A stretch of DNA of 64,000 bases. Origin: Chloroflexota bacterium (lineage in GTDB: Bacteria; Chloroflexota; Anaerolineae; Anaerolineales; Villigracilaceae). The stretch is taken from contig JACRBI010000008.1 of NCBI GenBank assembly GCA_016234495.1, positions 1 through 64,000 of the forward strand, read 5' to 3'. This document shows positions 689 through 7,106 of this stretch, in pieces. The notes under the pieces are model-generated. The model worked only from the letters and a program-made list of their open reading frames with translations. It was not told the DNA's origin and did no database searches. Each line of letters opens with the position of its first letter. The stretch's first letter is position 1. Both the position numbers and the translations under genes were made by a program.

Positions 689-2641
689 ATGAAAAAACAT
701 TTCATCATTTTGATTCTATTGTTTTCTATTCTCCTATCCGCCTGCGGAGCGCAATCGGCAGAACCCGCCGTCACTGAAACGCCCGCCCATAACATGGCAA
801 ACGTCTTTCCGGAAGTTGAGCCGATCTATGAAACCTTCGAACAGGACGGCGTAAAGGTTGAATTCACCGTAAAGGCCGAAGACCCATTTTTAGGAAACAC
901 TGAAATCGCCAAAGGCGCTTATGCAACCGTCCGTTTTCGCATCACAGACATTGCAAGCGGCAACCCGTTGACCGAAGCACGTCCGGCCGCGTGGATGGAC
1001 CTGTTTGTCGCAGGTTCCCCGGATGATGAACAAGCCTGTCAGGATAAAGTGAACGGATATTTAAAGGGTCAAATCAGCAACCGTCCGCTGGTTGACCTCA
1101 ACAGTTTTTTCATCCTCGCCATGAACTCGGGCAACACCATCTCGGTCATTGACCCTCTGGTTCAAGTGGGAGGCATCACCCAACTTTATACAACATTGCT
1201 GCTTGAAAGCCCCGGCCAGGATTGGGTCGCCAGCGGGGACGGTAATACGCTTTATATCAGCCTGCCCGAAGCCGGCAAAATTGCCATCGCTGATTTGCAG
1301 TCCTTTCGTGTGACCGATAAGATTTCCGCCGGCGATGTGCCTGTGCGGCTGGGGTTGCAACCGAACAGTCCGCACCTTTGGGTTGGTAATGACAGCAAGT
1401 CTGCGCGGGACAGCGGCGTGACGGTGATTGATTCAAAAACACACGACATCGTTTCATCCCTGACCCTCGGCCGGGGACACCACGAACTGGCATTTACTCC
1501 CGACGGAAAATACATCCTCGTCACCAGTGAATCTGATAATGAAGTTGCCCTGATAAACACTAAAAATTTTAAAGTTGTAGAATCGAGCACCACAGGCGAT
1601 CTTCCTGTGGCGGTGAAAGTTTCGCCAGACGGCAGGCGCGCATTTGTCGCGAACGGTGGAGAGGGCACAGTGGATATTTTTTCCCTGCCCGATTTAGCGC
1701 TCCAGACTTCACTGCAAGTGGATCCTGGACTGACAGGCATGAGTCTCGCCCCGGATGGACGTTGGGCATTTGTGTTGAACCCAAACCGCAATCGCGTGTA
1801 TCTCATTGACACAGCCAGCGGGGAACTCCGTCAGATACTGGAAATTTCCGCTGCGCCCGATCAGGTCATCTTTGGGAAAGAATCGGTTTACATCCGCCCG
1901 CTGAACGGCACGAGTCTCTTCTCCTTCGCGTTATCTGACCTTGAAAGCGGGCAAACGTTAAAGTTGACTGAAGTTCCGTACGCGCGCCGCGCGCCGGGCG
2001 AATCGGCGGAGCACGCCATTGCAAACCCCCTCGCGGCATTGCCCGATGAAGGAGCGATCCTGGTTGCGAACCCAGCCGATAACATGATCTATTATCTGAT
2101 CGAAGGGACGCTTTCACCAGCCGGCTCGTATCAGGATCAGGCGACCCTGCCAAGGGCGGTGACTTTTGTAGATCGCAGCCTCAAGCAGGAGGCGCCTGGT
2201 ATTTATTCAGGCAGGGTGCTTATTCCATTTGGCGGCGCCTATCAAGTGGCGCTGATGCTCGATACGCCAAAGTTGATGCATTGCTTCGACTTCACCGCCA
2301 AGCCGGGTGAGGCTGAAGTCAGCGCTCAAGCGCAAATTAAAATCGAAGCATTAAATCCTCCGAGTCAGATCAAGCGCGGAGAGATGGTCAGCATGAACTT
2401 CCTCGTCACGGATTCAAAACTCGAACAACCTGTAGATGGCATTGAAGATTTTGTGGTATCCGTCAATCAAATCGGCGGCAATTGGAGTCAAAGATATCTT
2501 GCGAAATCTGTTGGCGGAGGCATGTACGAAATTCAAGTCACCATCCCGCAAAGCGGATCATATAACCTGTTGCTGGGAGTCAGCTCGCGTAACTTCGGGT
2601 TGGATAGCATGGCGCCATTAAGTATGCAGGTGGTGGAGTAA
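689..2641 (+). CDS. Lipoprotein with YncE-like beta-propeller
   Basis: Predicted exported lipoprotein of 650 aa. The start is placed at the ATG preceding a classic signal, MKKHFIILILLF, ending in lipobox LSAC; an upstream in-frame ATG would run through the hairpin at 630-663 and is rejected. After a short linker an Ig-like/YtkA-like stretch (about residues 40-110) is followed by a YVTN/cytochrome-d1-like propeller (about 130-450) with repeated 'SPDGRRAFVANGG'-type blades. A C-terminal YtkA/FixH-like domain covers about 550-650. Such proteins often sit outside the membrane as surface or respiratory accessory factors. No CxxCH heme motif is present. The ligand is unknown. Confidence 0.7.
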   Translation: MKKHFIILILLFSILLSACGAQSAEPAVTETPAHNMANVFPEVEPIYETFEQDGVKVEFTVKAEDPFLGNTEIAKGAYATVRFRITDIASGNPLTEARPAAWMDLFVAGSPDDEQACQDKVNGYLKGQISNRPLVDLNSFFILAMNSGNTISVIDPLVQVGGITQLYTTLLLESPGQDWVASGDGNTLYISLPEAGKIAIADLQSFRVTDKISAGDVPVRLGLQPNSPHLWVGNDSKSARDSGVTVIDSKTHDIVSSLTLGRGHHELAFTPDGKYILVTSESDNEVALINTKNFKVVESSTTGDLPVAVKVSPDGRRAFVANGGEGTVDIFSLPDLALQTSLQVDPGLTGMSLAPDGRWAFVLNPNRNRVYLIDTASGELRQILEISAAPDQVIFGKESVYIRPLNGTSLFSFALSDLESGQTLKLTEVPYARRAPGESAEHAIANPLAALPDEGAILVANPADNMIYYLIEGTLSPAGSYQDQATLPRAVTFVDRSLKQEAPGIYSGRVLIPFGGAYQVALMLDTPKLMHCFDFTAKPGEAEVSAQAQIKIEALNPPSQIKRGEMVSMNFLVTDSKLEQPVDGIEDFVVSVNQIGGNWSQRYLAKSVGGGMYEIQVTIPQSGSYNLLLGVSSRNFGLDSMAPLSMQVVE

Positions 2642-2834
2642 CGCTTTTCGAAAGGAATATTCAATGAACGTTTGCAGATGATTGGGCAGACAGATAACCC
2701 CCACTCCAGAAGGATACAATACTGTTGATTCATGGATATACTGTAAACGTCAGGCGCTTATCTTACAGTATGGGCATCGGCAGCTCATAAGATTACACTC
2801 CAAATCAAAAAATTGAATTGACGGAACGAAACAA

Positions 2835-4358: not shown

Positions 4359-4946
4359 TTAATTTTCGATCAATAACGGGGTGACATATTCTTCAAGCAT
4401 TTCGCGGCTGATCTCGCCAACCCAGGCCAGGCGCACCGTGCCTTTGCGGTCGATCACATATGAACTTGGCAGGCTTTCATTGCGGAATGCTTTCATTGCC
4501 GCGCTCGTTAGATCAATCCAGACCGGATACGTCATGTTGTTTTCACGCACAAATTTTAAGACATCGCTTTGAGGTTCGCCGGCTTCGACACCAATGATCA
4601 CAAAGCCGTCATTCGTGTGTGTTTCGTAATAAGCCTGAAGCGTTGGGATTTCCGCCTTGCACGGCGGGCACCACGTCGCCCAATTATTGACCAGCACAAC
4701 CTTGTCGCGGTAATCAATTAATGACTCGGCTGCGCCATGCACGTTTTCAAGCGAAAGCTCCGGCGCGGGATAATTCACTTCCATCGGCGTCACTGATCTG
4801 GTGACAGCTTGCGGTTGGGCGCTGCTCTTTTCGCCAGCCAGCACCAGAAATGCCGCCAGACCTATCAGAACCAGACCCACGCCCAGAGTAAATTTCAGCC
4901 CGTCGGTGGGATTCCTTTTTTTGCGACGATGAATTTTCTTTGTCAT
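4359..4946 (-). CDS. Membrane-anchored TlpA/ResA-like thiol-disulfide oxidoreductase
   Basis: A 195-aa thioredoxin-fold protein. A basic N-terminus (res 1-17) is followed by one membrane anchor (about 18-38), so the domain faces the outside. The redoxin domain carries the catalytic motif WCPPC in 'NNWATWCPPCKAEIP' and the cis-Pro region 'ESLPSSYVIDRKG'. Members reduce or remake disulfides outside the cytoplasmic membrane, for example in cytochrome c maturation. It is the last gene of a minus-strand run with an ECF sigma factor, its anti-sigma and the Sec-containing thioredoxin-fold gene, 21 bases downstream of the latter. This supports a role in thiol redox stress. Confidence 0.85.
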   Translation of the reverse strand: MTKKIHRRKKRNPTDGLKFTLGVGLVLIGLAAFLVLAGEKSSAQPQAVTRSVTPMEVNYPAPELSLENVHGAAESLIDYRDKVVLVNNWATWCPPCKAEIPTLQAYYETHTNDGFVIIGVEAGEPQSDVLKFVRENNMTYPVWIDLTSAAMKAFRNESLPSSYVIDRKGTVRLAWVGEISREMLEEYVTPLLIEN

Positions 4947-4967: not shown

Positions 4968-5633
4968 TTAACGTACCGCCCGCATGATCTCTGCGAGTAA
5001 ATTTTTCTCCGGCAGCGCTCCGACGACTGTGCCTTTGCCTGCGTTGATGACAGTTTGCGGAACGCCCCTAACGTTGAACTGATTCGCCAACTCGGGAAAT
5101 TCCGTCGCTTCGACACCTTCCGCGCGGATCATGCCCGGGTTTTCCATGGCCATTTGATGTGCGAGCAACACGGCTCGCGGACAATGCGGTCAGGTAGGGG
5201 TGACGAATACCTGCAGGTGCAATGGCTTTTCGAGATTCTTTAGAAAGTCACGCACTTCTTCGCTCAAGCCTGAGTCACGGCCGGAGACGAGGAGAATGTC
5301 GTTGATCAGCGTGCCGAATTCGTGCCCGGCTGGAATGCCGGAATATTGAATCCCGAAATCAATGACCTGGTCGCCGTCTCTGGCGGCGATAACGATTGCG
5401 GGTGCTTTATCCACGTTGAATTTGGCGGCCATGTCTGCATCCGCTTGCAGGTCGTAAATGCCCAGGCTGAGTTTTTCGTCAATGGCGGCCACTTCTTCAA
5501 GAAGCTGGCGCGTGTCGGCGCAGTACTCGCAATTATCCTGCGACCCAAAGAATAGGATCTGCACCGGTTCCTTCAATTGTTCGAATGTTTGTTTGATCTG
5601 GCTGATGACTTGCTCGTTGAGAAGTTTTTCCAT
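4968..5633 (-). CDS. Candidate selenoprotein: two-domain thioredoxin-fold (PDO/glutaredoxin-like) with UPHC active site
   Basis: Two open segments (5193-5633 and 4968-5189) are in the same frame and separated only by a TGA at 5190-5192. Read through, they give a 221-aa protein of two thioredoxin folds, the usual size of protein disulfide oxidoreductases. Domain 1 has CEYC (C35, C38). Domain 2 has VTPT-X-PHC-PRAV, where X148 is the TGA codon at the exact place of the first catalytic Cys, so the active site reads U-P-H-C. The cis-Pro motif 'RGVPQTVIN' follows. A SECIS-like hairpin starts 11 bases after the TGA. A plain nonsense mutation (TGC or TGT to TGA) or sequencing error is the alternative. 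The gene follows an ECF sigma/anti-sigma pair and has its own promoter-like motif. Confidence 0.75.
5161..5178 (-). promoter_or_regulatory. Candidate bacterial SECIS hairpin
   Basis: On the minus strand, 12-29 bases after the in-frame TGA, GCGAGC pairs perfectly with GCTCGC around the loop CGTGTT. Known bacterial SECIS elements are small hairpins right after the UGA with a G in the first two loop bases, roughly 16-37 bases from the UGA. Here the loop G is base 19. The fit is good but the hairpin is short and overlaps coding sequence, so it is suggestive and not proof. Confidence 0.6.
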
Positions 5634-5668: not shown

Positions 5669-5695
5669 GGATGCGGGCAAATAGGAAAAGTTACA
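5669..5695 (-). promoter_or_regulatory. Predicted ECF-type promoter upstream of the selenoprotein gene
   Basis: The minus strand carries TGTAACTTTT, 12 bases, then CATCC, in the gap between the anti-sigma stop and the selenoprotein start (36 bases from CATCC to the ATG). The same two boxes with the same 12-base spacing precede osmC at 7080-7106. An AAC-containing -35 box is typical of ECF sigma factor promoters, and the ECF gene lies between these two sites. Confidence 0.55.
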
Positions 5696-5725: not shown

Positions 5726-5995
5726 TTATTTGGTTGACGGTTTCAAATAGTCGTCGAGGTTTAGGCGCTTGAAGAGCCGACTCCGCACATCGTCCGGCAG
5801 ATCAGTTTGCGGGTCGTTTGAAGCGTGGACGAGGTCAATCGTCTTGCGGGTCGTGTCCACAACGATGCGGCAGTCTTCACATTCCGCAATATGTTTTTCG
5901 ATCTGGCGGCATAACTCAGCGCCGAGTTCGCCGTCGATGTAATCGGAGAGGGAGCCAAGCAGACCTTCACAGGTGTTATGAGTTGATTCAGTCAT
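5726..5995 (-). CDS. Zinc-finger anti-sigma factor (ZAS type)
   Basis: An 89-aa soluble protein with the HxxxCxxC signature 'HIAECEDC' (about residues 35-42) and an earlier Cys29 and Cys9, the pattern of zinc-binding anti-sigma factors such as RsrA. These proteins bind an ECF sigma factor and release it when Zn-ligand thiols are oxidised. Its start overlaps the sigma gene end by 8 bases, which indicates translational coupling. No membrane segment is seen, so it probably senses the cytoplasmic redox state. The downstream thioredoxin-fold genes fit a thiol-stress regulon. Confidence 0.85.
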   Translation of the reverse strand: MTESTHNTCEGLLGSLSDYIDGELGAELCRQIEKHIAECEDCRIVVDTTRKTIDLVHASNDPQTDLPDDVRSRLFKRLNLDDYLKPSTK

Positions 5996-6596
5996 TTGAT
6001 TTCTCCTTCTTCATTCGTTCACCGTAATAATAAGATAATTGTTCCCGTAACATTAAACGCGCTCTTAGCAGACGCACCTTGACGTTGGCTTCGCTGAGGT
6101 TCAGCGCCTCGGCCGTGTCTTTTATCGACAGGTCTTGAATGTCGCGCAGCAGAAAAACCATGCGCAGGTTTTCGGGTAAATTTTGGATGGCATGGTCAAG
6201 CGCCTGCCTGCCTTCAACTGAGAGCAATTCGTCTTCAGGCAATGCGCCCCAATCTACAAATTGGGTCGGGCGGATGTCATCGTGTTCGCCGCTTGAGTCA
6301 TGATCGTCAATATTAACCTCTGGCTTTCCGCGGCGCAGGATCATCAAGGCTTCGTTGACGGCGATGCGATACAGCCAGGTTAAAACGCTGGAGCGCCCTT
6401 CAAAATTGGAGAGATGCGTTAGCGCGCTGAGAAATGTGTTTTGCAAGACGTCTTCAGCATCCTGCTCACTGCCAAGCATCCGCAAACTTAAACGGTAGAT
6501 CGGGGCGGAATACGCGTCCACCATTTGGGCGAATTCCGCCCGGTCTCCATTGCGCAGGGCTTCAATTGATATATCTTTGATTGTTGTTTCAACCAT
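5988..6596 (-). CDS. ECF-type RNA polymerase sigma factor
   Basis: A 202-aa sigma-70 family protein. Region 2 (about residues 20-90) has 'LRMLGSEQDAEDVLQNTF' and the -10 recognition stretch 'TWLYRIAVNEAL'. Region 4 (about 130-185) has 'LPENLRMVFLLRDIQDLS' and the helix-turn-helix 'IKDTAEALNLSEANVKVRL'. An acidic linker (about 95-125) separates them. It overlaps the ZAS anti-sigma gene. Its targets probably include osmC upstream and the selenoprotein downstream, which share a promoter-like motif; no such motif is seen directly before the sigma gene itself, so it may be transcribed from the osmC promoter. Confidence 0.92.
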   Translation of the reverse strand: MVETTIKDISIEALRNGDRAEFAQMVDAYSAPIYRLSLRMLGSEQDAEDVLQNTFLSALTHLSNFEGRSSVLTWLYRIAVNEALMILRRGKPEVNIDDHDSSGEHDDIRPTQFVDWGALPEDELLSVEGRQALDHAIQNLPENLRMVFLLRDIQDLSIKDTAEALNLSEANVKVRLLRARLMLREQLSYYYGERMKKEKSND

Positions 6597-6650: not shown

Positions 6651-7046
6651 TTAAGCAACCGGTTCGACCACTCTCGTGGTGACATCAAATACTGGCGGAT
6701 TTTCCAGATGCTTTTTAACCGCGCATAATTCAGCAGTGTGGATTAGAGAGGGGCGGTACTTTTCGGGGAAACCTGCCGGGACCTGAATTTCGAGATCGAT
6801 CTTTTCGATCATGCCGCTCAGGGGGTTGCTCTGCATTCGCTGCACAATGCGGATTCCGTCAGTGGGGAGGTTGCGCTGTTTGCAGAACCCGAGCACATAA
6901 ATGCCTGCGCATGTGCCGATCGAGGCGAGGAATACCGCAAAGGGAGTTGGCGCGCTCGCCATCGGTGGCTGGTCGGTGGCGACTGTGTGAGGGCCGAAGT
7001 GTGCGTCCACGCGGGAACCGCCGGGGAAGTCAATGATCATTTCCAT
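6651..7046 (-). CDS. OsmC-family peroxidase-like protein
   Basis: A 131-aa protein of the OsmC/Ohr superfamily, whose members reduce organic hydroperoxides or persulfides with two cysteines. Cys in 'GTCAGIYVLGF' and in 'ELCAVKKHLENPP' match the two redox Cys of the fold. The start is set at the ATG of MEMIIDFPGG because GGAGAT lies 8 bases before it; a longer frame from 7094 would overlap the predicted ECF promoter. It sits 55 bases upstream of the sigma gene on the same strand, so the sigma operon may begin here. Confidence 0.85.
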   Translation of the reverse strand: MEMIIDFPGGSRVDAHFGPHTVATDQPPMASAPTPFAVFLASIGTCAGIYVLGFCKQRNLPTDGIRIVQRMQSNPLSGMIEKIDLEIQVPAGFPEKYRPSLIHTAELCAVKKHLENPPVFDVTTRVVEPVA

Positions 7047-7079: not shown

Positions 7080-7106
7080 GGATGTGCAAATCATAAAAAA
7101 GTTACA
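7080..7106 (-). promoter_or_regulatory. Predicted ECF-type promoter upstream of osmC
   Basis: Minus strand TGTAACTTTT, 12 bases, CATCC, 33 bases before the osmC ATG. Identical boxes and spacing are found before the selenoprotein gene (5669-5695). Confidence 0.55.

Follow-up and report, generated by a model that had tools for sequence, protein, structure and literature searches.

Does the TGA that interrupts an otherwise intact reading frame in this Chloroflexota (Anaerolineales) genome end a protein or encode selenocysteine (Sec), and what part might the product play in the cell? The window, by which is meant the whole 64,000-nucleotide stretch of DNA analysed, had been read from its letters alone as holding a probable selenoprotein at 4968-5633. 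These coordinates are correct and the gene, here called Sec-PDO, lies on the minus strand, with its ATG at 5633 and its TAA at 4970-4968. Its main elements are as follows.

4968..5633, minus strand: Sec-PDO gene of 221 codons before the TAA, encoding two thioredoxin-fold domains (TIGR02187)
5520..5531, minus strand: first active site, CEYC, residues 35-38, from the translation and relatives
5190..5192, minus strand: in-frame TGA, predicted Sec codon 148, at a column holding TGA or Cys codons in relatives
5161..5178, minus strand: SECIS-like hairpin GCGAGC-CGUGUU-GCUCGC, beginning 11 nt past the TGA and conserved with it

Translation confirmed that a single TGA interrupts the frame, at the codon for the Cys that opens the second CxxC. 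It is the only table 11 stop codon before the end of the gene, and the read-through product has 221 residues (...VFVTPT-U-PHC...), the second site becoming UPHC (residues 148-151). TGA-read-through ORFs of the window contain 33 candidate UxxC, UxxS, UxxT or CxxU sites, Sec-PDO among them; the rest resemble non-coding frames by eye. Judged by its sequence and that of its relatives, the UGA of the Sec-PDO gene is almost certainly read as selenocysteine.

The protein scores 272.5 bits against NCBIfam TIGR02187 ('PDO_seleno_TRX', cut-off 185) and residues 14-219 match the PDO of Pyrococcus furiosus (PDB 1a8l) with E 3.9e-46. An AlphaFold2 model in which Cys stands for Sec reached pLDDT 95.9 and pTM 0.92, and it superimposes on solved PDOs with TM 0.92 (2ayt) and 0.93 (1a8l). 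The family score and the model bear out the proposed two-domain thioredoxin-fold architecture, and on these grounds the predicted protein is a protein disulfide oxidoreductase (PDO) with two thioredoxin folds, each bearing a CxxC or UxxC site. It resembles the PDOs of P. furiosus (1a8l) and Aquifex aeolicus (2ayt, 2ywm) in whole-length homology, fold and possession of two such sites, but the aligned solved proteins have Cys at the second site, where Sec-PDO has its predicted Sec. The solved PDOs come from hyperthermophiles. The N-terminal domain of AhpF (6il7, 1zyn, 1hyu) also consists of two fused thioredoxin folds (TM 0.78-0.86); in contrast to AhpF, however, Sec-PDO has no flavoprotein part, and its score against the NCBIfam AhpF model (91.3) does not reach the cut-off of 502.9.

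Sec-containing members of TIGR02187 are already known, and the short name of the NCBIfam model itself says 'seleno'. A UxxC protein of the family from C. hydrogenoformans (ABB15282.1, 'Homolog of AhpF N-terminal domain (Grx-like domain protein)') is listed by two reviews as a high-confidence or predicted selenoprotein (PMC13188914, PMC9312934), and the list of a 2006 survey gives a TIGR02187 selenoprotein for Carboxydothermus and Symbiobacterium (PMC1794560). As listed, ABB15282.1 shares family and UxxC motif type with Sec-PDO. While the listed Sec proteins are from Carboxydothermus and Symbiobacterium, Sec-PDO belongs to Chloroflexota and to a group with many Sec/Cys switches. A review (PMC7465337) states that PDOs occur only in thermophiles, that they take electrons from NADPH and thioredoxin reductase in place of thioredoxin, and that the C-terminal site of the Sulfolobus solfataricus enzyme is fundamental for thiol-transferase activity. 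The predicted Sec therefore stands where the residue should matter most. In four TGA copies (L124, L127, L128 and L129) another residue stands in for the first Cys of the N-terminal CxxC (EDAC, SDTC, QETC and QEAC, respectively), which leaves the Sec site as the only possible full redox pair in these proteins.

Machinery for Sec insertion is present in the source assembly (4,095,714 bases in 57 contigs, 98% complete). A search for selA, selB, selC and selD, which had been proposed as a check on the Sec reading, found all four above curated cut-offs: selA at 552.7, selB at 360.8 and selD at 341.7 bits, and tRNA-Sec at 66.3 bits (gathering threshold 47), for which ARAGORN reports tRNA-SeC and the anticodon UCA. 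Only scores above cut-off are counted, weak matches to tRNA-Sec, selB and selD occurring in all 14 control genomes. ARAGORN found no tRNA within the 64-kb window. The selD of this genome (contig C49, ORF 1402-2811, minus strand) itself holds one TGA, in CAG-U-ASK, and its sequence makes it likely to be a second selenoprotein. Use of Sec in Anaerolineales has already been published for formate dehydrogenases (PMC4959059). Above-cut-off selA occurs in 141 of 152 genomes of the family and 321 of 400 of the phylum, and because it is so common its presence does not discriminate between Sec and Cys states: by hand count, 49 genomes have a TGA copy that passes the PDO cut-off and 46 of them a strong match, against 42 of the 49 whose copies are all of the Cys type. 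Of the three TGA-copy genomes lacking a strong match, G177 and G351 have none listed and G463 weak ones only (88, 76 and 77% complete, respectively); the seven Cys-only genomes without a strong match are G305, G324, G376, G457, G468, G481 and G493.

Searching those 152 family and 400 phylum genomes gave 120 loci with 106 distinct coding stretches, one of them a partial copy without the Sec column. Among the 105 copies that cover the site, the window copy included, the codon is TGA in 55, TGC in 35 and TGT in 15, and no copy has any other in-frame stop. The comparison of homologues that the sequence-only reading had called for has thus given the mixture of TGA and Cys codons, with the hairpin kept alongside TGA and lost alongside Cys. 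Purifying selection acts on the sequence past the TGA, where dN/dS is 0.059, compared with 0.072 before it (L020 against L023). Six of 80 named relatives have TGA, which gives no frequency, since one of the two scan patterns (QVFVTPTC) excludes TGA copies and several rows duplicate genes already in the set. Two records of Tepidibacillus decaturensis disagree at the site, strain Z9 having TGA and the MAG BL5_bin.8 TGC. Many relatives (L140-L145 and others) are from MAGs named for lake or groundwater.

The perfect 6-bp hairpin that had been noticed 11 bases past the TGA, with G at loop position 2, was also confirmed. Read along the minus strand, GCGAGC (5178-5173) and GCUCGC (5166-5161) form six Watson-Crick pairs around the loop CGUGUU (5172-5167), and the hairpin is present in the minimum-energy fold. 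Its stability is ordinary (z -0.75; 39 of 200 dinucleotide shuffles fold equally well), making energy weak evidence for Sec, and the argument therefore rests on conservation of codons and pairing. A synonymous-recoding energy test separated TGA copies (median z -1.19) from Cys copies (-0.51) only moderately (p = 0.0007). In copies with at least 52% identity to the window protein, all six stem pairs are present in 46 of 49 with TGA versus 2 of 35 with Cys, and the three TGA exceptions have only the outermost pair broken; at any identity, the figures are 48 of 55 and 2 of 50. Of the six more distant TGA copies, at under 52% identity, only two share the hairpin register of the window copy, and several show none in single-sequence folds, other registers being found or the result indistinct.

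Codon choice within the hairpin follows the same division. Its Ala codon is GCC in 49/49 TGA copies versus 10/35 Cys copies and its Val codon GTG in 49/49 versus 8/35, while its Arg codon is CGA in 41/45, although CGA makes up 4.8% of the 625 Arg codons elsewhere in the same genes. Where the site is TGA the hairpin codons hardly vary, and where it is Cys they vary freely, which argues against a chance hairpin. Covariation is thin, as three of the six stem pairs are invariant, but one pair has changed from G-C to A-U on both sides in four sequences. Five Cys copies (L031, L050, L083, L093 and L118) retain one arm of a Sec-type hairpin and are apparently relics of former Sec genes. One of them, L031, retains GCGAGC-CGTG and groups with Sec copies on the protein tree, as expected of a recent Sec-to-Cys change.

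That tree, of the quick kind, was built from 92 rows (50 Sec, 42 Cys) with the Sec site entered as Cys everywhere, the hairpin-coding columns included and the partial copy L131 omitted; eight of the 80 named rows were hand-picked as extras, and the tree gave a warning of long branches meeting (L177 with L185). The best tree has 21 changes between Sec and Cys, of which supported branches force at least ten. On average the hairpin follows the codon in 9.9 of 10 independent supported pairs and never goes in the opposite direction (sign test, P = 0.002). By itself the tree cannot separate gain of Sec from its loss.

Three other accounts of the TGA have to be set against this evidence. A point mutation, pseudogene or assembly error, by which TGA replaced TGC or TGT and left the gene dead or wrongly read, needs a single substitution, and the closest relatives include Cys copies at 86-89% identity. 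However, TGA is found in 55 of the 105 copies, which come from separately assembled genomes, no copy has a further disabling change, dN/dS past the TGA is about 0.06 and the hairpin codons are frozen in TGA copies only, so that this account is exceedingly improbable. Its assembly-error form, raised when the gene was first noticed, is ruled out because TGA recurs in 54 other copies, among them one from another genome with 89% protein identity. Alternatively, the TGA may be a true stop, with a 147-residue N-domain protein ending at 5190 and the C-domain separately re-initiated; a mechanical ORF list does give a 147-aa ORF and a 67-aa ORF with a GTG start. Sec decoding is usually partial, and some truncated product is likely for that reason. 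As the whole explanation a true stop is nevertheless highly improbable, for it would always have to coincide with the catalytic Cys codon, 50 relatives read through with Cys, and both hairpin and Sec machinery are present. A third possibility, reassignment of UGA to an amino acid such as Trp or Cys in this organism, would also leave one frame open, but the adjacent sigma factor gene ends in UGA, relatives have Cys and never Trp in this column, and a tRNA-Sec with anticodon UCA is present; its probability is negligible.

The Sec reading is supported by the Sec machinery of the genome, the mixture of TGA and Cys codons in relatives and the hairpin that tracks TGA. There can be very little doubt that the gene encodes a predicted PDO with a Sec-x-x-Cys C-terminal site, its UGA being decoded through the SECIS-like hairpin, and selenium insertion at codon 148 is predicted with high confidence. 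SelB with Sec-tRNA(Sec) would read the UGA, and the hairpin 11 nt downstream would act as the bacterial SECIS element. Recognition of SECIS elements can differ between species. By analogy with the family, NADPH would supply electrons by way of thioredoxin reductase to the Sec-x-x-Cys site, and this site would reduce or exchange protein disulfides, Sec148 attacking and Cys151 resolving.

The surroundings of the gene bear on when such an enzyme might be made. The relevant features are these.

4359..4946, minus strand: ResA/TlpA-like thiol-disulfide oxidoreductase (WCPPC), 21 nt downstream of Sec-PDO
5670..5695, minus strand: ECF-promoter-like element TGTAAC-N16-CATC upstream of Sec-PDO, putative in function
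5726..5995, minus strand: zinc-type anti-sigma factor (C9-H35-C39-C42)
5988..6596, minus strand: ECF sigma factor; its gene shares 8 nt with that of the anti-sigma factor and ends in TGA
6651..7046, minus strand: OsmC-like protein, first gene of the OsmC-sigma-anti-sigma cluster, ATG presumed at 7046 (longest ORF from 7094)
7081..7106, minus strand: second TGTAAC-N16-CATC element of promoter-like type, preceding the OsmC-sigma-anti-sigma cluster, putative in function
1501-1526 of L221, elsewhere in the genome: third promoter-like element, before a thioredoxin reductase gene

The ResA-like gene and Sec-PDO are probably on the same transcript. Homologues of the anti-sigma factor and of ResA accompany 77 and 76, respectively, of the 106 distinct loci, whose flanks vary; some loci carry the sigma pair on the opposite strand. 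C9, H35, C39 and C42 of the anti-sigma factor are present in 77, 76, 77 and 76 of its 77 rows, respectively.

The pattern TGTAWC-N14..18-CATC (spacings found, 16 and 17) occurs upstream of PDO in 27 of 82 loci, compared with 0.09 expected from single-base shuffles, the loci being related to one another. Of 67 loci, 11 also have it ahead of sigma; in the same set of loci it was found before none of 75 ResA, 73 anti-sigma and 10 OsmC starts. TGA and Cys copies of PDO have the motif alike. The motif differs from the SigR promoter. A stricter form has only four matches in the whole genome (4.1 Mb; backward control 0): before Sec-PDO, before the OsmC-sigma-anti-sigma cluster, 107 nt before the start of the thioredoxin reductase gene (TIGR01292, 385.4 bits, cut-off 343.45) and inside an unrelated serine-peptidase-like ORF. 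Eight congeners, which are closely related and hence non-independent, have 35 matches, the backward control giving 0 in seven genomes and 2 in G126. Among the 30 of these that were inspected, eight are before PDO (in 8/8 genomes, partly by construction of the pattern), six before OsmC, three before thioredoxin reductase, five about 300 nt before a WCGPC thioredoxin-like ORF and one before a rhodanese-like ORF, the last two types of ORF being named by eye; seven fit none of these.

The closest known parallel is SigR/RsrA of Streptomyces coelicolor, where RsrA has C11, H37, C41 and C44 (PMC4960319, PMC3961337), spaced identically to C9-H35-C39-C42. In both systems an ECF sigma gene overlaps the gene for a CHCC zinc anti-sigma factor that includes the N-terminal Cys needed for redox sensing; here the putative promoter motif also precedes thioredoxin reductase. 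Unlike SigR/RsrA, the putative targets here include Sec-PDO. The anti-sigma factor misses the RsrA cut-off of NCBIfam (TIGR03988, 37.3 versus 62.5 bits) and matches RsrA in the PDB with E 0.059 only; it is therefore not filed as RsrA and is said only to work like it.

On this analogy, the adjacent ECF sigma factor rather likely controls Sec-PDO within a thiol-redox regulon working like SigR/RsrA. The zinc anti-sigma factor would hold the sigma factor until thiol oxidation, and the freed sigma factor would then drive its own cluster, the PDO-ResA pair and thioredoxin reductase. A less probable but serious alternative is that the sigma/anti-sigma pair is a neighbour by descent with no control over PDO, the motif belonging to another factor. 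The strict motif is absent upstream of PDO in 55 of the 82 loci, the pair is on the opposite strand in some loci, as noted, and part of the input to the search pattern came from these same PDO upstream sequences. On the other hand, the motif also precedes the OsmC-sigma-anti-sigma cluster and thioredoxin reductase, which were outside the input to the pattern, in this genome and its congeners, and its occurrence before sigma in the set of related loci is not matched before the ResA, anti-sigma or OsmC starts of that set.

If the adjacent sigma factor does control Sec-PDO, a Sec-dependent feedback loop might tentatively be proposed, although it is rather doubtful. Oxidation of the RsrA-like anti-sigma factor would free the ECF sigma factor, which would induce thioredoxin reductase and Sec-PDO, and Sec-PDO would re-reduce the anti-sigma factor. 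Titles and abstract openings of the papers listed in library searches on selenoproteins with SigR/RsrA-type sigma factors, and on ECF sigma factors with Chloroflexi and thioredoxin reductase, contained no description of a Sec-PDO feedback loop.

Pipelines in which TGA is always a stop would break the gene up, leaving a fragment of 147 aa and a remnant and masking the catalytic Sec. A link to a thiol-stress sigma regulon, if true, gives Sec-PDO a physiological place. The Anaerolineales copies amount to a natural series of high density: a single atom of the active site, Se or S, has been exchanged at least ten times on supported branches, the hairpin appearing or decaying alongside the codon while the sigma, anti-sigma and ResA neighbours are often retained. 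With 49 Sec and 35 Cys versions in related genomes, often in the same neighbourhood, this is a series for asking what Sec buys, and its matched Sec and Cys enzyme pairs would allow a test of why bacteria retain or lose selenocysteine.
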